Shown piece by piece: positions 15,956-24,367 of a DNA stretch of 64,000 nucleotides. The translations under genes were made by a program, and so were the position numbers. Numbering within the stretch: position 1 is the first letter of the stretch; each line of letters starts with the position of its first letter. The DNA lies in assembly GCF_030440425.1 (NCBI RefSeq), contig NZ_CP098023.1:1787501-1851500 (forward strand), read 5' to 3'. The notes under the pieces were generated by a model. It had not been told where the DNA came from, did not search any database, and worked only from the letters and a program-made list of their open reading frames with translations. Origin of the DNA: Microbulbifer sp. MI-G. Its GTDB lineage: Bacteria; Pseudomonadota; Gammaproteobacteria; Pseudomonadales; Cellvibrionaceae.

Positions 15956-16561
15956 CTAGGCTTTTTGCACAATCAGGTAGGTGTGTGATTCAGGATGCTG
16001 GCTGTACTCCAGGTGCCTGCAGAGGCAACCCAGGCTGATTAATACTGTAAGGAAGCCATTTGTTCCCAGGGTCGCGTAGTAAACTTCTGGTCCCATAGAG
16101 TCATCGGTGTGGTCACTTTTCTCATCTGTACCGCCGAAAGTGAAAATCAGCACGCCACCTTTGTTCAGGCTGAAAACCAGTTTAGCCAAAACAGTTGCCT
16201 GCTGTTGCAGGGGGATGTGCCAAATACTATCCCAGGCCGTGATAAAGTCATATTTGTCTTCTATACACCATTCACAGATATCCCGGTGATGAAAAACCAC
16301 TCCCGGATGGCGACGCCTGGCCAAGCGAATCATTTCCGCAGAGACATCGACGCCCTCTGGCGTAAACCCCTCACTTAACAGAAGATCAATGAATCGGCCA
16401 GTAGAGCCGCAGCCAACGTCAAGGGCTTTGCCCTTATTGTTGACGAATGCCAAGGCTCTTTTATGCGCATCGATTCCATTTTTCCTATTGAAGTTCCCGT
16501 TCTCCCAAAGGTGGGTAATTTTGTCGTACGCTCTACCAATGTCTTTCGGGTGCATGGTCAT
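15956..16561 (-). CDS. Class I SAM-dependent methyltransferase
   Basis: A 201-residue protein with a class I S-adenosylmethionine-binding fold. Motif I is ALDVGCGSTGRFIDLL near residues 46-61, the acidic motif II region is GVDVSAEMIRLARRRHPG, and a later DFITAWDSIWHIP segment corresponds to motif IV. The substrate is unknown. The thiol-rich metal site expected for arsenite methyltransferase (ArsM) is not evident, so ArsM should not be assumed even though an ArsS-type operon lies 0.9 kb away. It points opposite to that operon and follows the DUF2239 gene in the same direction. AGG precedes the ATG at 16561; ATG 16555 is an alternative. Confidence 0.8.
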   Translation of the reverse strand: MTMHPKDIGRAYDKITHLWENGNFNRKNGIDAHKRALAFVNNKGKALDVGCGSTGRFIDLLLSEGFTPEGVDVSAEMIRLARRRHPGVVFHHRDICEWCIEDKYDFITAWDSIWHIPLQQQATVLAKLVFSLNKGGVLIFTFGGTDEKSDHTDDSMGPEVYYATLGTNGFLTVLISLGCLCRHLEYSQHPESHTYLIVQKA

Positions 16562-16665
16562 TGAGCCTATCGCTTTAAGCCAGACGCAGCCGTCTGGAAG
16601 AAAACCGGCAGCAAGGCACCGCTCACAAAAATATTGCCGGGTTGTTGAGTCATGGTAAATCTGTT

Positions 16666-17232
16666 TTATAAATTACCGCTGTGCATTTCCGCGATTTCGT
16701 TAAATTTGGCTAGCAAAATCTGTTTGAGGTCATCCGGCCAGGAATGGATGGCTTTTTCAAAACTGATTTTGCTGTTTCTGACCAGGGCGCGGCTGGCCTC
16801 CTCGAAGCCAGGAGCATCTCCTGCAACCAACAGCATCAATCCATCCAGTTGTTGTTGTTTTGTGGTGATACGTTCTTCGAGGGAAACCTGTTTTTGCGCC
16901 TGCTCCACCAGCCTGCGAAGAGTGACAGAGGCACCGCCGGGCTGCTGGCCCAGCCACTCCCAATGGCGGGGAAGCAGTGTAACCTCTTTGGGGATAACCC
17001 CTAATTTGGGCCGTCCGCGCCTGGTTTTTGGGGTGTGCGTATCAGCTGTTAGCCTGGCCAGTACTTCCTCTGTATCACCGTGCCAATCCACCTCAACCCG
17101 TTTACAACTTTCAGATTCAAAGACAATGGGTTCATGAGCCGCCCCCATGTCTTTTACTTGGTGCGCAATCGCCTCCAGTGTTCCCCGCGCGATGACCCTT
17201 AGCTGGTCGATAGCGATATAGTCGGTGGCCAT
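16666..17232 (-). CDS. DUF2239 family protein
   Basis: A 188-residue protein of the uncharacterised DUF2239 family, recognised by the central RGRPKLGVIPKEVTLLPRHW and the following WLGQQPGGASVTLRRLVE. The AT-hook-like RGRPK and the ribbon-helix-helix-like segment after it hint at nucleic-acid binding, but no function is established to my knowledge. GGAGA lies seven bases before the ATG. Three inverted repeats sit immediately upstream, which would suit an autoregulated DNA-binding protein; that is inference. Confidence 0.75.
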   Translation of the reverse strand: MATDYIAIDQLRVIARGTLEAIAHQVKDMGAAHEPIVFESESCKRVEVDWHGDTEEVLARLTADTHTPKTRRGRPKLGVIPKEVTLLPRHWEWLGQQPGGASVTLRRLVEQAQKQVSLEERITTKQQQLDGLMLLVAGDAPGFEEASRALVRNSKISFEKAIHSWPDDLKQILLAKFNEIAEMHSGNL

Positions 17233-17501: not shown

Positions 17502-18401
17502 ATGGCCAGAGCACTGATTGGCGTTATCGGGGGCAGCGGTCTTTACGAGATGCCGGGGCTGAGTGAGGTAGAGGCGCTGCGGATAGATACCCCTTTCGGC
17601 GCGCCTTCGGACACGATTGTCTGGGGAAAACTACAGGGCATCCCCGTTGCCTTCCTGGCCCGCCATGGGCGCGGCCACCGCCTGATCCCCGGCGAAGTGC
17701 CCTACAGGGCCAATATTCACGCCCTGCGCCAGTTGGGTGTGCGCTATATCCTGTCGCTCTCCGCTGTGGGCTCCCTGCGCGAGGAAGTGCGACCGCTGGA
17801 TATGCTGATTCCGGATCAGTTTATCGATATGACGCGCAAGCGTGACAGCACCTTTTTCGGTGGTGGTGCCGTGGCCCATGTCGCCATGGCGGACCCGGTG
17901 TGCCCGTCAGTGGCACGCTGTCTGGCACAAGCTTTTGAGCGCACGCAGGCGGATCAGCCCATCCGCCTGCACAGACAGGGCAGCTATGTCTGTATCGAGG
18001 GTCCCCAATTCTCCAGCCGCGCGGAATCCCATTGGTATCGCAGTATGGGGGCCTCCGTGATCGGTATGACCAATATGCCGGAGGCGAAGCTGGCAAGAGA
18101 GGCGCAGATTGCCTATGCCACCCTGGCCATGGCCACCGACTATGATTGCTGGCATCCCCGTGAAGCAGCGGTAACTGCAGCGGTGGCCATTGCCAATCTG
18201 CAGCAAAATGCCGCCCGTGCCCAGCAGATCGCTGCAGAGGCGATCCGCCTGCTGGGTGAGGAACAGCCACACTCTTTTGCACACTCCGCGCTGGAAAGTG
18301 GTCTGGTGACGCCCCTGGAGGCTCTGCCCAAAGACACCCTCGCTGTAATAAAGCCATTGCTTGCTCCGACAGAACCGGTGCCTGAAGAAGTGGAGCGCTG
18401 A
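17502..18401 (+). CDS. mtnP: S-methyl-5'-thioadenosine/thioinosine phosphorylase family
   Basis: Nucleoside phosphorylase of the MTAP family (299 residues from ATG 17502, preceded by AGGAG; the frame extends to 17454 without a good start). The family releases the base from 5'-modified nucleosides such as methylthioadenosine, giving a 5-modified ribose-1-phosphate. Visible are the N-terminal phosphate loop IGGSGLYEMPGL, the GPQFSSRAES region, GMTNMPEAKLARE, and ATDYDCWH of the base pocket. In Pseudomonas a close relative prefers methylthioinosine, so the natural base is uncertain. It opens a six-gene operon; arsS begins five bases after its stop. A role in deadenylating the ArsS product is attractive but inferred. 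Confidence 0.88.
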   Translation: MARALIGVIGGSGLYEMPGLSEVEALRIDTPFGAPSDTIVWGKLQGIPVAFLARHGRGHRLIPGEVPYRANIHALRQLGVRYILSLSAVGSLREEVRPLDMLIPDQFIDMTRKRDSTFFGGGAVAHVAMADPVCPSVARCLAQAFERTQADQPIRLHRQGSYVCIEGPQFSSRAESHWYRSMGASVIGMTNMPEAKLAREAQIAYATLAMATDYDCWHPREAAVTAAVAIANLQQNAARAQQIAAEAIRLLGEEQPHSFAHSALESGLVTPLEALPKDTLAVIKPLLAPTEPVPEEVER

Positions 18402-18406
18402 GGCGT

Positions 18407-19354
18407 ATGCACGAAACACTACCGCTGTTGGAATTATCGGATTTCCCGGCCATTCGTCGCGAAAAAATACAAACCCTGCAGGTGAATATCGGTTATCGCT
18501 GCAACCAGAGCTGTGTGCACTGTCATGTGAATGCGGGCCCCAAGCGCACAGAGATGATGTCTGAAGAAAACCTGGCCCTGTTGCTGGAGGTGATGCAAGT
18601 GCGGGGTGTCAGCACCCTGGATATCACCGGTGGCGCGCCGGAGCTGCACCGGGGCTTCAGGCCACTGGTGCAGGCTGCCCGCGGGCAGGATGTACAGGTG
18701 ATAGACCGCTGTAACCTCACGGTGCTGTTCGAGCCGGGTCAGGAGGATACCGCAGAATTTCTCGCGCAACACCAGGTGGAGGTGGTCGCTTCACTGCCGT
18801 GCTACTCCATGGAGAATGTGGATAAGCAACGGGGCAAGGGGGTTTTCGATAAAAGCATTCGCGCATTGCAGCAACTGAATGCACTGGGGTACGGCAAGCC
18901 GGAAACCGGCCTGCGGCTCAATCTGGTTTACAACCCGCAGGGAGCCTCTTTGCCTCCGGAACAGACCGCCCTGGAAGCGGACTACCGCAGGGAACTGGCC
19001 GCGCATTTTGATATCGCGTTTAACAACCTGTTTGCCCTGGCCAATATGCCGATCAAGCGTTTTGGCTCTATGCTGGTGTCCAAGGGCCAGTTTCAGAAGT
19101 ATATGGCGCTGCTCAAGGACAGTTACAGTTCCGCCAACCTCGAGGGCGTTATGTGTCGCACCCTGGTCAGCGTCGATTGGCAGGGCAATTTATACGACTG
19201 CGATTTTAACCAGCAATTGAATATCCCGGTACCGGGCCGTTTACACCTGCGCGATTTGCTCAGGCACGATTTGCAGGATCTTTCCATTTGTGTGGCCGAT
19301 CACTGTTACGGTTGCACGGCGGGGCAGGGCAGCAGTTGTGGTGGTGCCCTCTAG
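18407..19354 (+). CDS. arsS: ArsS-type radical SAM protein (arsenosugar biosynthesis)
   Basis: A 315-residue radical SAM enzyme. The 4Fe-4S motif CxxxCxxC is Cys32, Cys36 and Cys39 in RCNQSCVHCH, followed by DITGGAPELH. The C terminus is Cys-rich, with CDFNQQL near residue 265 and closing CVADHCYGCTAGQGSSCGG, as in the family annotated ArsS or radical SAM/Cys-rich. In cyanobacteria ArsS is reported to attach the SAM-derived 5'-deoxyadenosyl group to dimethylarsenite, making a precursor of arsenosugars. Its position with an MTAP-like phosphorylase and two arsenosugar-type glycosyltransferases supports that assignment. Arsenite methyltransferase, needed upstream in the pathway, is not in the window. 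Confidence 0.85.
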   Translation: MHETLPLLELSDFPAIRREKIQTLQVNIGYRCNQSCVHCHVNAGPKRTEMMSEENLALLLEVMQVRGVSTLDITGGAPELHRGFRPLVQAARGQDVQVIDRCNLTVLFEPGQEDTAEFLAQHQVEVVASLPCYSMENVDKQRGKGVFDKSIRALQQLNALGYGKPETGLRLNLVYNPQGASLPPEQTALEADYRRELAAHFDIAFNNLFALANMPIKRFGSMLVSKGQFQKYMALLKDSYSSANLEGVMCRTLVSVDWQGNLYDCDFNQQLNIPVPGRLHLRDLLRHDLQDLSICVADHCYGCTAGQGSSCGGAL

Positions 19355-19415
19355 GGGGCTTGCGGAAACTGAAAGAGACAGGGAAATCGAACCCTGAACA
19401 GAGGAGCGAAGGGTT

Positions 19416-20099
19416 ATGGGCAAAAGAATCCTGCTGGTGTCTGCGATACTGGTGCTGGTGATTGCCTTTTATGCGTTCGATCTGGACCAGTGGCTGATGC
19501 TGGATAAGCTGCAGGAGGGAACGGATAAATTCATGCAGTGGAAAGACGCCTCGCCACTGCTGGTGGGGCTACTGTTTGCGCTGTTTTATATTCTGGTAAC
19601 CGGTTTGTCTCTCCCCGGCGCTGCCATTCTCACCATTGCCGCGGGCGCGGTATTCGGTTTGTATTGGGGCACGATCATTGTTTCTTTCTCTTCCAGTATC
19701 GGCGCAACCCTGGCTTTCCTGGTGGCCCGTTATCTGCTGCGTGACTATGTGCAGGAGCGTTTTGCCATGCGGCTGAAAATGGTGAATGAGGGTATAGAGC
19801 GCGAAGGGGCTTTTTACCTGTTCGCGCTGCGCCTGGTACCGGTTTTCCCCTTTGTCCTGATCAATATCCTGATGGGCCTTACCCATATCCGGGTATGGAC
19901 CTTTTACTGGGTGAGCCAGCTGGGCATGCTGGCCGCCACTATTGTCTATGTGAATGCAGGTACCCAGTTGGCAAGGATTGATAACCTGAAGGATATTGCC
20001 TCCCCGGCACTGTTGCTGTCCTTTGCCCTGCTGGGGGTATTTCCACTGCTGGCAAAATATATCCTCAACTGGGTGAAGCGCCGCCGCGCTGCCAAATGA
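19416..20099 (+). CDS. TVP38/TMEM64 (VTT-domain) membrane protein
   Basis: A 227-residue inner-membrane protein of the TVP38/TMEM64 (SNARE-associated, DedA-like) family. Hydrophobic segments lie near residues 5-21, 48-90, 130-155, 160-180 and 195-215. The VTT signature is seen in LSLPGAAILTIAAGAVFG, then SSIGATLAFLVARYLLRD, and a later ALRLVPVFPFVLINILMG. Transport or lipid-handling roles are proposed for the family. AAGGG precedes the ATG. In other bacteria this domain is found fused to a flavoprotein like the next gene, so the two probably work together. Confidence 0.88.
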   Translation: MGKRILLVSAILVLVIAFYAFDLDQWLMLDKLQEGTDKFMQWKDASPLLVGLLFALFYILVTGLSLPGAAILTIAAGAVFGLYWGTIIVSFSSSIGATLAFLVARYLLRDYVQERFAMRLKMVNEGIEREGAFYLFALRLVPVFPFVLINILMGLTHIRVWTFYWVSQLGMLAATIVYVNAGTQLARIDNLKDIASPALLLSFALLGVFPLLAKYILNWVKRRRAAK

Positions 20100-20108
20100 G
20101 TCTTTGCA

Positions 20109-21584
20109 ATGAGTAAACCCAAGAAATTCGACCGCAATCTAATTGTTATTGGTGCCGGTGCTGCGGGGCTGGTTAGCGCCTATATCTCGGCTGCGGTAAA
20201 GGCCGAAGTGACTTTAATAGAAGCGGGGAATATGGGGGGTGACTGCCTGAATACCGGCTGTGTGCCCAGCAAGGCGCTTATCCAGTGTGCCCGTATCGCC
20301 CACTGGACGCGCCGGGCCGATCAATTCGGGATCTGTGTCGCCGAGCCGGGAGTCGACTTTCCCGGCGTTATGCGCCATGTGCGCGCCTCTATTGAGCGGA
20401 TTGCCCCTCACGACAGTGTGGAGCGATACACCGAGTTGGGGGTGGAGGTTGTCCAGGGGCAGGCGCGCCTTGTGGATCCCTGGACAGTCACCATTGCGCT
20501 GAACAGCGGCGGGGAGCGAACGCTCAGCGCACGGGCAATTGTACTCGCTACCGGTGCCGAACCCATAGTGCCGCCATTGCCCGGTCTGGAAAATGTGCAC
20601 TACCTGACCAGTGAAACCCTTTGGGACCGGTGCGCAAAGCTGGACCAGGTGCCGCGCAGGCTGTTGCTGCTGGGTGGGGGCAGCATTGGCTGCGAGTTGG
20701 CCCAGGCATTTGTGAGACTGGGATCGGATGTCACACTGGTGGAGAAAGAGAGCCGCCTGCTGCCACGAGAGGATCAGGAGGTATCCGAAGCCCTTTCACG
20801 CGCCCTTGAGTCCGAGGGCGTAAACCTGCTCACCGGGCACGAGGCCCTGGCTTTTATCGGTAAGCCAAACCGCATAGGCGGCGCCCTGCGTCTGCGCAAT
20901 GCAGAGGGTGAAACACAGGTCACATTTGACGAGGTGATCCTGGCTCTGGGCAGGCGTGCCCGGACCCAGGGATTTGGGCTTGAGTCATTGGGCCTGGTGC
21001 AGGGCGGTAAGTTGGAGGCGGATGCCTACCTGCGTACCCGCTATCCCCATATTCTCGCCGCCGGCGATGTTGTGGGTCCCTACCAGTTTACCCATATGGC
21101 CTCGCACCAGGCCTGGTATGCCGCCGTGAATGGCCTCTTTGGGGATATAAAAAAATTCCCGGTGGATTACTCCCTGGTTCCCCGTGCAACCTTCATCGAT
21201 CCGGAGGTGGCCAGTGTGGGGCTCAGCGAGGGCATGGCCAGTGAACAGGGTATCGCCTATGAGGTTACCCGCTACGCTCTCGACGACCTGGATCGCGCCA
21301 TAGTCGACGGTGCCGCACAGGGCTTTGTGAAAGTACTCACGGTACCGGGCAAGGATACAATTCTCGGCGTTTCCATTGTGGGCGAAAATGCGGCGGAGCT
21401 GATCGCGGAGTTTATTATTGCGATGAAGCATGGACTGGGCCTGAACAAAATTTTATCCACTATTCATACCTACCCCACGATGGCAGAGGCGAATAAATTT
21501 GTCGCCGGGAACTGGAAACGGGCGCATGCCCCGGAGTGGGCGTTGCGCTGGCTGAAACTGTTTCACCGGTGGAGGCGGGGTTAG
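20109..21584 (+). CDS. MerA/Lpd-like FAD-dependent oxidoreductase
   Basis: A 491-residue class I pyridine nucleotide-disulfide oxidoreductase. FAD motif GAGAAGLVSAY begins at residue 15, the redox-active disulfide is Cys46/Cys51 in GGDCLNTGCVPSK, the NAD(P) motif is GGGSIGCELAQAF, and the dimer-interface motif HTYPTMAEA is near the C terminus. It resembles mercuric reductase-type proteins but lacks the C-terminal vicinal cysteines of true MerA, so mercury reduction is unlikely. It begins nine bases after the TVP38 gene and its stop overlaps the next start. Within this operon a role in reducing an arsenic or thiol intermediate is conceivable but unproven. Confidence 0.85.
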   Translation: MSKPKKFDRNLIVIGAGAAGLVSAYISAAVKAEVTLIEAGNMGGDCLNTGCVPSKALIQCARIAHWTRRADQFGICVAEPGVDFPGVMRHVRASIERIAPHDSVERYTELGVEVVQGQARLVDPWTVTIALNSGGERTLSARAIVLATGAEPIVPPLPGLENVHYLTSETLWDRCAKLDQVPRRLLLLGGGSIGCELAQAFVRLGSDVTLVEKESRLLPREDQEVSEALSRALESEGVNLLTGHEALAFIGKPNRIGGALRLRNAEGETQVTFDEVILALGRRARTQGFGLESLGLVQGGKLEADAYLRTRYPHILAAGDVVGPYQFTHMASHQAWYAAVNGLFGDIKKFPVDYSLVPRATFIDPEVASVGLSEGMASEQGIAYEVTRYALDDLDRAIVDGAAQGFVKVLTVPGKDTILGVSIVGENAAELIAEFIIAMKHGLGLNKILSTIHTYPTMAEANKFVAGNWKRAHAPEWALRWLKLFHRWRRG

Positions 21585-22258
21585 TGCAGTACAGTGTTGT
21601 TGTTCCGCTGCTGAATGAACGGGAGCAGCTGCCGGAACTCGCGGTGCAGTTGCGGGAGCTGCAAACCCCCGGCAGTTGCGAAATTATTCTGGTCGATGGC
21701 GGCAGTAGCGACAACAGTGTGGAGATTGCCACTGCCGCGGGCTTTCCGGTAATTGTGTCAGAGCGCGGCCGGGCCGCACAGATGAACGCCGGTGCGGCTG
21801 CGGCATGCGGGCACTGGCTGCTGTTTCTGCACGCGGATACCCGTTTGCCCCGGGGGGCTCTGGATGCGATTGCTGCGGCTGCGCTACAGGGGGCACAGTG
21901 GGGGCGCTTCGATATCCGTATTCGCGGCGACAGTGTCTGGTTTCCCTTGATTGCCACCTTGATCAACTGGCGTTCGCGTCTGAGCGGCATTGCCACAGGC
22001 GATCAGGCAATCTTTGTACGCCGCGCACTGTTCGAGCGCCTGGGCAGCTATGCCCGGCAGCCTCTGATGGAGGATATCGAATTGAGCCGGCGGCTGCTGA
22101 AGGTGGCGCGGCCGTTTTGTCTGCACCAGCGCAGCACCACCTCCGGGCGTCGCTGGCAGAAGTTTGGTGTTCTGCGCACTGTGCTGCTGATGTGGCGTTT
22201 GCGCTTTGACTACTGGCGCGGTGTGCCTGCGGCCTCTTTGGCGAAGCGTTATGAGTAG
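21584..22258 (+). CDS. TIGR04283-type glycosyltransferase (GT2)
   Basis: A 224-residue family 2 glycosyltransferase of the TIGR04283 group, whose members are annotated in arsenosugar biosynthesis. The GT-A nucleotide-sugar fold is seen in YSVVVPLLNERE, IILVDGGSSDNSVE and the metal-binding FLHADTRLP; a later GDQAIFVRR and MEDIELSRRL are typical. The GTG start at 21584 overlaps the preceding TAG by one base and has GGAGG eight bases upstream; the frame continues to 21536, but that part lies within the flavoprotein gene. It overlaps the next gene by eight bases. Donor and acceptor are unknown. Confidence 0.87.
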   Translation: MQYSVVVPLLNEREQLPELAVQLRELQTPGSCEIILVDGGSSDNSVEIATAAGFPVIVSERGRAAQMNAGAAAACGHWLLFLHADTRLPRGALDAIAAAALQGAQWGRFDIRIRGDSVWFPLIATLINWRSRLSGIATGDQAIFVRRALFERLGSYARQPLMEDIELSRRLLKVARPFCLHQRSTTSGRRWQKFGVLRTVLLMWRLRFDYWRGVPAASLAKRYE

Positions 22259-22892
22259 TGTTACCCACCACACACTGCGCCTGGTTGTGATGGCCAAGGC
22301 GCCATTAAGCGGCTATGCCAAAACCCGTTTGATTCCCGCACTGGGTGAGCGCGGTGCTGCTGCACTGGCGGAGAGACTGCTGCACCATACTCTGGAAGCC
22401 TGTGTGCGGGCGGACCTGGGGCCTGTGGAATTGCATGTGGTGCCGGACCCCTCGCACGCCTACTGGCGGGATTTCCCGCTGTCGCCCGGTATCAGTCTTT
22501 ACGGGCAGTCGCAGGGGGATCTCGGCCAGCGCCTGTGGCATGCCAGCAGAAACGCGCGGGCGCTGGGGCAGGGGCTTTTGCTGCTGGGCACCGACTGCCC
22601 GGCACTCACCGCGCAGCGTCTGCATACCGCGGCGGAGGTCCTGCAGAGATCCGATGCGGTAATGTACCCGGCAAAAGATGGCGGTTACGCATTACTGGGA
22701 CTCAAAGAGGTACAGGCGCGGCTGTTTGAAGACATCCACTGGAGTACCGCAGAGGTGGCGCAGCAGACGCTGGACCGATTGTGGGAGTGTGGAATGCACT
22801 GCCAGCGCCTGGAGGCACTGACGGATATCGATGAGCCCGGGGATTTAACCGCACTGCCGCAGGCCTGGCGGGAATCTGTCGATGTAGGCTAG
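22251..22892 (+). CDS. TIGR04282-type glycosyltransferase (GT-A like)
   Basis: A 213-residue protein of the TIGR04282 group, a GT-A/nucleotidyltransferase-like fold that regularly accompanies TIGR04283. Motifs are VVMAKAPLSGYAKTRL (like the nucleotide-binding loop of sugar-nucleotidyltransferases), LLGTDCPALT and PAKDGGYALLGL, and DIDEPGDL near the end. ATG 22251 overlaps the previous gene, so translation is probably coupled; the longer frame to 22206 is an overlap extension. It is the last operon gene. Its TAG lies in the palindrome CTAG, which also supplies the stop of the convergent mltF. Confidence 0.85.
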   Translation: MSSVTHHTLRLVVMAKAPLSGYAKTRLIPALGERGAAALAERLLHHTLEACVRADLGPVELHVVPDPSHAYWRDFPLSPGISLYGQSQGDLGQRLWHASRNARALGQGLLLLGTDCPALTAQRLHTAAEVLQRSDAVMYPAKDGGYALLGLKEVQARLFEDIHWSTAEVAQQTLDRLWECGMHCQRLEALTDIDEPGDLTALPQAWRESVDVG

Positions 22893-24367
22893 AGTGCCGG
22901 GGCTGTACCGCTCTCGGCCTCTACCGCGCTGCCATCGGCGAGCACCGTGGGGTTTTCATCGCCAGCGGCCGCCAGGCGCTGCTCCTCGATACGGCTGCTC
23001 CAGTTCAGCAGTGCCTGGTAGTGGCGGATATTCTGTACATAGGTCACCGGCTCCCAGCCCCGGGCATAGCCGTGCCTGGTGGTTTTGTAGTACTGGCGCT
23101 TGGCCAGCAGGGGCAGGTGATCGCGCACATCGGGCCAGCGGTCCGGGTTGCCGCCCATGCGCTCGGTGAGCACACGGGCATCTTCCAGGTGGCCGTAGCC
23201 AACGTTATAGGCCGCCAGTGCCATCCAGGTTCTATCGGGTTCACGAATACGTTCTGGCAGCTTGTTGCGGATCTGTACGATATAGCGGGCGCCACCTTCA
23301 ATACTCTCCGCCGGATTGAGGCGGTTGACCCCCAGTTCCTTTGCCGTATCCAGGGTCAGCATCATCAGTCCACGCACACCGGTGCGGGAACGGGCACGGG
23401 GGTTCCAGTAGGACTCCTGGTAACTGAGTGCCGCCAGCAGATGCCAGTCCAACTGGTACTGATCGGCAACTTTCTGCATGGTGCCCTGCCACTGGGGCAG
23501 GCGCTCGCGGCTGCGCCTGGCGAATGCCTGGGCGCCGCCGACATTCAAGCCGCTGACGTGCCCGAAGAATTCCTCGCGCAGTTGTGCAACCATGCCATTG
23601 GTATTGGCGCGCAGCATAAACAGGCGCGCGAGGTGATACAGGCTGTCGTCGCTGCTCTTGGGAAACGCCCAGGCCACCGGTTGGAACTGGGTGAGATTGA
23701 ACGCGACCGCGGTATTCGGGTAGAGGCCGCGGTGCACCGCGTAGGCGTTGGAATCCACTACGGCGTAGTTGTACTTGCCCTGCTGAACCATTTCCACCAG
23801 TTCCATGGTGTCCACATCGGAGATGGCCTCCCAGTGCAGCTCTGGATAACGCTTGGAGAGCTTGTTCAATTCCTCCGCGTGGGCACTGCCGGCGATCACC
23901 GCGACAGTCTTGTCAGCGAGGTCGCTGATTTTGCGCGGACGCGCCTCGCCCACGCGGTAAATAATCTGTTGGCGGATCTCAAAATAGGACGGGGAGAAGC
24001 GTACCTGTTCGCGGCGCTGGGGAGTCACGGTGAGGCCGGCGGCGGCAAAGTGGGCGCCCTCGGCGGGATCGCGCAGGCGCTCGAACAACTCGTCCAGGTC
24101 GTGTACATCGCGGATGACCAGCTTGACACCGATTTCCTCGGCAAAAGCGCGCAGCATGCCGTGCTCAAAACCGGTGGGGTTGCCGGAGGCATCCTCGTAA
24201 TAGGTGGTGGGCCCGTTCTGGGAAAGCACAACCAGCTCCCCTGAGGTCCGGATGCGCTCCAGGGTATCCGGCGCCTTGCTGGCGACCAGCAGTGCGGCAC
24301 AGCAAAAGAGGGCCAGCCCTTTCAACAGGCGGCGGACATAGCGCAGCAGGCGGCTTGTCATCATCAT
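22889..24367 (-). CDS. mltF: Membrane-bound lytic murein transglycosylase F
   Basis: Cleaves peptidoglycan glycan strands to 1,6-anhydromuropeptides at the periplasmic face. In 492 residues an N-terminal hydrophobic segment (about 15-30, signal peptide or anchor) is followed by a solute-binding-protein-like domain (about 40-265) and a C-terminal SLT lysozyme-like domain (about 295-450). The catalytic acid is Glu318 in SYQESYWNPRARSRTG, with the later GGARYI and LAAYNVGYGH motifs typical of family 1 transglycosylases. Three consecutive ATG codons begin at 24367, after GAGGGGA. It is monocistronic and converges on the arsS operon. Confidence 0.95.
   Translation of the reverse strand: MMMTSRLLRYVRRLLKGLALFCCAALLVASKAPDTLERIRTSGELVVLSQNGPTTYYEDASGNPTGFEHGMLRAFAEEIGVKLVIRDVHDLDELFERLRDPAEGAHFAAAGLTVTPQRREQVRFSPSYFEIRQQIIYRVGEARPRKISDLADKTVAVIAGSAHAEELNKLSKRYPELHWEAISDVDTMELVEMVQQGKYNYAVVDSNAYAVHRGLYPNTAVAFNLTQFQPVAWAFPKSSDDSLYHLARLFMLRANTNGMVAQLREEFFGHVSGLNVGGAQAFARRSRERLPQWQGTMQKVADQYQLDWHLLAALSYQESYWNPRARSRTGVRGLMMLTLDTAKELGVNRLNPAESIEGGARYIVQIRNKLPERIREPDRTWMALAAYNVGYGHLEDARVLTERMGGNPDRWPDVRDHLPLLAKRQYYKTTRHGYARGWEPVTYVQNIRHYQALLNWSSRIEEQRLAAAGDENPTVLADGSAVEAESGTAPAL

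Follow-up and report, generated by a model that had tools for sequence, protein, structure and literature searches.

A phosphorylase gene paired with arsS in Microbulbifer and a proposed ribose-1-phosphate route to arsenosugars

Why does a gene that resembles a methionine-salvage enzyme head an operon that also carries arsS, the gene of a radical S-adenosylmethionine (SAM) arsenosugar enzyme? The question is raised by a 64,000-nucleotide stretch of the Microbulbifer sp. MI-G genome (NZ_CP098023.1, forward-strand positions 1,787,501 to 1,851,500), hereafter the window, in which positions 17502-22892 hold six open reading frames on the plus strand. The phosphorylase of this operon, encoded next to arsS and related to methylthioadenosine phosphorylase (MTAP), is a specialised version of a widespread recycling enzyme and probably cuts the adenine off the ArsS product. 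Specifically, we propose, at a probability of roughly 0.64, that the operon makes an arsenosugar by way of this dedicated phosphorylase, a nucleoside diphosphate (NDP)-arsenoribose and a GT2-type transfer. Family membership, linkage, co-occurrence, a phosphorylase clade, its pocket changes and predicted folds were observed, and from these we infer all substrates and which of the two final reactions comes first; the chemistry of ArsS is taken from the literature. The genes are as follows.

17502-18401, plus strand: MTAP-like nucleoside phosphorylase, proposed arsenonucleoside phosphorylase of an arsS-linked clade (TIGR01694, 317.8 bits; curated cut-off 274.85)
18407-19354, plus strand: ArsS, radical SAM arsenosugar enzyme with conserved cysteines (TIGR04167, 467.5 bits; curated cut-off 300)
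19416-20099, plus strand: VTT-domain (DedA-like) membrane protein (PF09335)
20109-21584, plus strand: FAD pyridine-nucleotide-disulphide oxidoreductase (PF07992, PF02852)
21584-22258, plus strand, GTG start: TIGR04283 glycosyltransferase, GT2-type, by profiles and model matches (TIGR04283, 265.4 bits, curated cut-off 182; PF00535, 65.2 over 23.3)
22251-22892, plus strand: TIGR04282/DUF2064 protein, proposed nucleotidyltransferase by profile, conserved residues and model matches (TIGR04282, 190.8 bits; curated cut-off 134)

Gaps of 5, 61 and 9 bases separate the first four genes, and the last two junctions overlap by 1 and 8 bases, bearing out the layout described in an earlier note on this DNA. 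The same note had named the ArsS, TIGR04283, TIGR04282 and MTAP-like families, and all four proteins score above the curated cut-offs. Of 115 sequences, at least 98% keep the ArsS cysteines C32, C36 and C39 (CxxxCxxC) and the C-terminal C300, C303 and C311. The phosphorylase resembles the TIGR01694 MTAPs in whole-length homology, in score and in an adenine-type Asp pair; it differs from them in smaller residues at three 5′-pocket positions and in being tied to arsS loci. It falls under the cut-off for PRK07432, the cyanobacterial-type MTAP (418 of 453), and MTIP identity (PRK09136) was ruled out by a score of 201.8 of 223 and by Asp rather than Asn in the pair.

We searched 48 Microbulbifer genomes for arsS and for PF01048, the family to which the MTAP-like protein belongs. 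In all 19 genomes with arsS, the MTAP-like gene shares contig and strand with the arsS match and is 0.2-0.3 kb distant from it, and the PF01048 search found it in none of the 29 without arsS (Fisher p = 9e-14, kinship ignored). Another, weaker PF01048 member (79-84 bits) occurs in five of these 29, and 24 of the 48 genomes lack a PF01048 match altogether. Since the gene is present in Microbulbifer only alongside arsS, and half of the genomes do without the family, its product does not serve a general housekeeping role in this genus. The pairing of phosphorylase and arsS is far beyond chance, and the adjacency that the earlier note had proposed to look for is conserved, both here and in a linked clade of 33 members. 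Among the best 80 matches listed, the closest named loci are from Microbulbifer, and congeneric genomes carry the same locus. One Microbulbifer genome, G543 (G and L numbers are our labels for genomes and loci), has two complementary arsS loci, L174 and L175: one consists of MTAP, arsS and TIGR04283, the other of arsS, a VTT-FAD fusion, TIGR04282 and an ArsM-like gene.

In a wider scan over contigs of named genomes, the best 80 MTAP loci were taken; 21 of them have arsenosugar-cluster genes in the piece fetched, with arsS in 20 of these. All 21 belong to beta- or gammaproteobacteria (Microbulbifer, Polaromonas, Hylemonella, Caldimonas, Pseudogulbenkiania, Psychrobacter, Nitrincola and metagenome-assembled genomes). 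Cluster genes were found in none of the other 59 loci, in pieces that reach about 10 kb to both sides for 27 of them and are shorter otherwise. Gene order varies: the MTAP gene lies directly before arsS in Microbulbifer and Polaromonas, divergent from it in Hylemonella, Nitrincola, G078 and G457, convergent with the cluster in Psychrobacter and G473, and several kilobases from arsS in Pseudogulbenkiania and G366. Among 100 genomes of Psychrobacter, the genus of G530, a complete clade member is present in 57 and broken or partial matches in two more; in 18 of 20 fetched regions arsS lies 2.9-4.7 kb away, one region is cut by a contig end, and the remaining one shows the cluster but no arsS. One Psychrobacter clade member (G1010:C56:147107-147833) was matched in two separate pieces and is apparently a broken copy.

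In a tree of 139 sequences, built by a quick method with SH-aLRT supports only, 33 phosphorylases whose genes have arsS or a TIGR04283/TIGR04282 pair no more than 10 kb away form a single clade (SH-aLRT 99) with no unlinked sequence inside, although the set was drawn from best-scoring matches and unlinked members may exist elsewhere. The linkage label requires two changes on the tree, compared with 31.5 in shuffles. The sister group consists of 24 cyanobacterial MTAPs (SH-aLRT 98 for the joint set); unlike for the linked clade, no cluster gene lies in the piece fetched for any of the 24, some pieces being short. A second, distant MTAP lineage adjoins arsS in G758 and G870, both of one gammaproteobacterial family, following arsS within about 30 bases, and this pairing is independent of the main clade.

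The active site was compared at the positions listed here.

18138-18146, plus strand: codons 213-215 (D-Y-D), adenine-recognition pair Asp213/Asp215, Asp in 33 of 33 linked sequences
18177-18188, plus strand: codons 226 and 229 (Ala, Ala), proposed widened 5′ pocket
18306-18308, plus strand: codon 269 (Val), pocket residue from the neighbouring subunit

The Asp pair, which recognises adenine in MTAPs, is kept throughout the clade, and is Asn/Ala in all 17 MTIP-type sequences, a type common in the order. We called a position diagnostic when one residue reaches at least 90% in the clade and the same residue stays below 30% in the cyanobacterial sister, which gave 14 positions. Three of them, 226, 229 and 269, presumably correspond to Val233, Val236 and Leu279 of the human MTAP 5′-methylthio pocket, a numbering not found in the open-licence literature searched. 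At these sites the 33 linked and 24 cyanobacterial sequences read A31 T2 versus V24, A33 versus V20 I4, and V31 I2 versus L12 M8 I4, respectively, so the bulky residues of an MTAP methylthio pocket are replaced in the window protein by A226, A229 and V269. All 33 clade members have the combination A/T226, A229 and V/I269; it is missing from the 106 other sequences, none of which has Ala229. Diagnostic sites occupy three of three pocket positions (p = 8e-5) or three of five (p = 8e-4), on a pocket list that follows the human numbering above. The clade's residues suggest an enlarged 5′ pocket, as a dimethylarsinoyl group would need.

A crystallised relative provides a structural view of this region. 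RSFP (PDB 4glf/4glj) is described, in the part of its report available, as a rhodamine-B-binding putative MTAP from an Antarctic soil metagenome, with enzymatic examination announced for later; two half-occupied rhodamine B molecules lie in its active cleft, one of which contacts residues 239, 242, 243 and 278. These residues align with 230, 233, 234 and 269 of the window protein. Val278, equivalent to Val269, contacts the bound dye, which partly supports a pocket role for position 269, while Asp222 and Asp224 (Asp213 and Asp215 here) contact the second dye molecule. Of the 14 diagnostic sites, six fall in the cleft loops given in the RSFP paper, which comprise 51 residues (p = 0.019). RSFP resembles the window protein (392.9 bits) and, more closely, an arsS-linked Psychrobacter protein (535 bits), and has the same Ala/Ala/Val pocket; it was left out of the tree and is placed with the clade by sequence score. 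A roomy 5′ side would fit both the small pocket residues and the dye binding. The core of the earlier note, that an MTAP-family enzyme performs the deadenylation, has held up on the pairing, and the change in the 5′ pocket goes the way expected of such an enzyme. From its distribution and sequence, the phosphorylase would act in the arsenosugar route, and the case for this is much stronger than when it was first proposed.

The same enzyme might instead clear 5′-deoxyadenosine, released by uncoupled ArsS turnover, or methylthioadenosine, thereby protecting the radical SAM enzyme and leaving the arsenic nucleoside untouched. We consider this unlikely, although it accords with the score over the MTAP cut-off and the retained adenine-type Asp pair, MTAPs accept 5′-deoxyadenosine, and the pocket of the second lineage is not widened. 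Because 5′-deoxyadenosine is smaller than methylthioadenosine, a wider pocket would not be needed for it, yet all 33 clade members carry the smaller pocket residues; moreover, Microbulbifer genomes without arsS manage without the gene.

We then consider the two enzymes encoded at the end of the operon, both of which the earlier note had taken for glycosyltransferases. This stands for the TIGR04283 protein, whose predicted model (predicted local distance difference test score, pLDDT, 96.5) finds as its best solved Foldseek matches the glycosyltransferases WrtF, PcManGT, AvpGT and ArnC, and also GtrB and TarS. It does not stand for the TIGR04282 protein (pLDDT 95.2), whose best solved matches are nucleotidyltransferases: the top match is 3cgx, named a putative nucleotide-diphospho-sugar transferase, followed by CofC/FbiD-type guanylyltransferases, IspD, TarI and GlmU. 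Its predicted fold is closest to the CofC type, while its score of 51.2 falls under the TIGR03552 cut-off of 105 for CofC. Conserved residues include K24-T25-R26, a lone D115, D143-G-G, D192 and D194. On these models, the TIGR04282 protein is better read as a nucleotidyltransferase than as a glycosyltransferase. If so, the chemistry becomes sugar-1-phosphate to NDP-sugar to glycoside, and the phosphorylase fits the pathway because it delivers the sugar-1-phosphate that the next enzyme needs.

The resulting route would run as follows. An ArsM-like methyltransferase would supply dimethylarsenic, which ArsS would join to the 5′-deoxyadenosyl group of SAM. The MTAP-like enzyme would convert this arsenonucleoside to adenine and 5-deoxy-5-dimethylarsinoyl-alpha-ribose-1-phosphate, from which the TIGR04282 protein may form NDP-arsenoribose; we know of no description of such a compound. 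Finally, the TIGR04283 GT2-type enzyme would move the arsenoribosyl group onto glycerol, a glycerol phosphate or a lipid as acceptor, inverting the anomeric centre and so yielding the beta-riboside found in nature. Phosphorolysis inverts the anomeric centre from beta to alpha, nucleotidyl transfer leaves it as it is, and GT2 enzymes invert. An inverting phosphorylase followed by an inverting GT2 enzyme would therefore produce a beta-riboside, matching the arsenosugars, which the literature lists as beta-D-Ribf. The chances are about even that the ribose-1-phosphate route is complete in this form, with a phosphorylase derived from a cyanobacterial-type MTAP whose 5′ pocket was widened for dimethylarsinoyl, an NDP-arsenoribose nucleotidyltransferase and an inverting GT2 enzyme. 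On such a route, a phosphorylase rather than a nucleosidase would have been recruited because the next enzyme needs a sugar-1-phosphate.

The putative source of dimethylarsenic lies elsewhere in the genome. An ArsM-like methyltransferase homologue is encoded 157 kb from the operon, and homologues occur in 17 of the 19 Microbulbifer genomes with arsS and in none of the 29 without. Members of the ArsM-like cluster are also found in the neighbourhood of 20 of 98 arsS loci, a biased sample. Profiles were run on the G933 homologue and on the L095 query, to which the G000 copy is 72% identical over 341 residues; PRK11873 and AsSugarArsM rank first or close to first among the families matched by the former.

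It is quite improbable, in our estimate, that ArsS and the phosphorylase act on a nucleoside free of arsenic, the arsenosugar label being inherited from the family. The functions of TIGR04283 and TIGR04282 are indeed family names only, and the ArsM-like protein scores under the ArsM cut-offs, which makes this reading slightly more, and the arsenosugar proposal slightly less, likely. However, the ArsM-like protein resembles arsenite methyltransferases most and tracks arsS across the genus, its cluster recurs near arsS in the biased sample above, and a review assigns arsenic adenosylation in oxo-arsenosugar biosynthesis to a radical SAM enzyme, with a study of ArsS as its source.

A housekeeping MTAP of methionine salvage, travelling with arsS by chance, was considered first and dropped after the genus survey; we now regard it as very improbable. 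No other PF01048 member was found in the window's genome, so the product of this gene may also salvage methylthioadenosine, but none of the 29 Microbulbifer genomes without arsS keeps the gene, and the linkage persists across several gene orders and orientations and in all 33 clade members. Degradation of arsenonucleosides or arsenosugars is the least probable alternative, since phosphorolysis is also catabolic but the linkage to ArsS and to nucleotidyltransferase-like and GT2-type proteins is a biosynthetic layout.

Several observations weigh against the proposed arsenosugar function. The pocket changes fall on one ancestral branch and are a single event; outside the clade, Ala226 occurs alone in two sequences and Val/Ala269 alone in eight. 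The second lineage, in G758 and G870, keeps a Val/Val/Leu pocket, and no TIGR04283 or TIGR04282 match was found near its MTAP-arsS pair. The glycosyltransferase WrtF appears among the Foldseek matches of the TIGR04282 protein from rank 28 (it is not in the 50 rows of a second comparison of that structure). The ArsM-like homologue was not found in two arsS-bearing Microbulbifer genomes, G949 and G952, and its best family, arsenite methyltransferase, is matched under the cut-off (161.2 for the G933 homologue and 169 for the L095 query, of 263), as is AsSugarArsM (84.8 of 400 for the G933 homologue). In the piece fetched for the Psychrobacter locus L102, whose contig is as long as that of L326, the cluster is present but arsS is not, and no PF01048 match was found in the arsS-bearing genomes G447, G455 and G517. 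Lastly, in a sample of 293 genomes of the order, an MTAP gene lies within 10 kb in at least 12 of the 104 genomes with arsS.

With most sampled arsS loci lacking a linked MTAP, a universal mtnP-arsS pairing is ruled out: the pairing put forward in the earlier note is conserved in Microbulbifer and the linked clade, and is not a general trait. The dedicated phosphorylase is one regional solution. In a sample of the class, linkage among the rows listed occurs only in G000, G758 and G870. An MTAP-family gene at any position is found in 94 of the 104 genomes of the order with arsS versus 92 of the 189 others, a comparison that ignores kinship and is not used as proof. MTAP is present in 26 of 98 arsS loci, which is no frequency because the loci were chosen partly for MTAP (L227 was excluded because it duplicates the G078 region).

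Ten arsS-bearing genomes without an MTAP-family match were surveyed for substitute deadenylases, with an outcome that is suggestive only. G304 and G550, both scanned, have an MTA/SAH nucleosidase, and G569 and G606 have similar, unscanned matches; G559 has two fragments, and no substitute was found in G447, G455 and G517. In G436 (L287) the gene of a PRK08202-type purine nucleoside phosphorylase is 2.4 kb distant from arsS, and in its genus mate G400 the distance is 21 kb.

ArsM and ArsS are the known first steps of arsenosugar synthesis, and adenine loss, arsenoribose activation and transfer are open in the literature, as far as the accessible parts of the sources go. According to the available part of a paper citing Xue 2019, SsArsS works with SsArsM in Synechocystis, and the present system shares these first steps with that cyanobacterial pathway. 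A review of microalgal glycoconjugates, in the section available, proposes for the algal lipid AsSugPhytol546 an adenosyl nucleosidase followed by phytyl diphosphate. Like our proposal, that route strips adenine from the arsenonucleoside; it uses a nucleosidase giving a ribose derivative instead of a phosphorylase giving a sugar-1-phosphate, and that section names no gene for it. The open-licence literature searched, in part by passages, gave no paper that connects ArsS with either a phosphorylase of the MTAP type or a nucleotide sugar.

According to the literature, many algae contain arsenosugars, which also find their way into popular sea foods. The operon offers candidate enzymes for the three remaining steps, adenine loss, activation and transfer, and the proposal predicts an arsenic-bearing nucleotide sugar. 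The pocket signature would allow arsenonucleoside phosphorylases to be predicted from sequence, and RSFP offers an existing crystal structure for docking or soaking. In such operons, one gene named for methionine salvage and another named a glycosyltransferase may carry the wrong names.

The remaining genes in and around the operon add some minor observations. The FAD oxidoreductase falls under the cut-off of each of its 25 best NCBIfam families (best, PRK06370, 444 of 620). It and the VTT protein (19416-21584) each have a gene of their own in L211 and in the main Microbulbifer loci, and form one fused VTT-FAD protein in 26 other loci (L095-L097, L170 and L188 are among the loci with this variation). 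Promoter and terminator patterns in the operon are at or near shuffle level (2 versus 2.3 and 7 versus 5.2, respectively). The next gene past the operon is on the opposite strand:

22889-24367, opposite strand to the operon: MltF

Upstream, two minus-strand genes at 15956-17232 encode a small class I methyltransferase, whose profile matches include no ArsM family, and a DUF2239 protein; a DUF2239 protein also adjoins the G562 locus, and this cluster spans five loci. In many genomes of the order, an arsS-TIGR04283-TIGR04282 trio without MTAP adjoins flagellar genes (including L169, L171, L176, L180, L181, L191, L194, L199 and L218), and a FlgA-chaperone cluster, confirmed by Pfam for three representatives, is present in 15 of 98 arsS loci. 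A DUF547 protein of about 250-300 amino acids (PF04784 in the one scanned) occurs in 13 of 98 arsS neighbourhoods, for example at L174:6493-7371 and L188:6324-7235 and in L178, L222 and L226.

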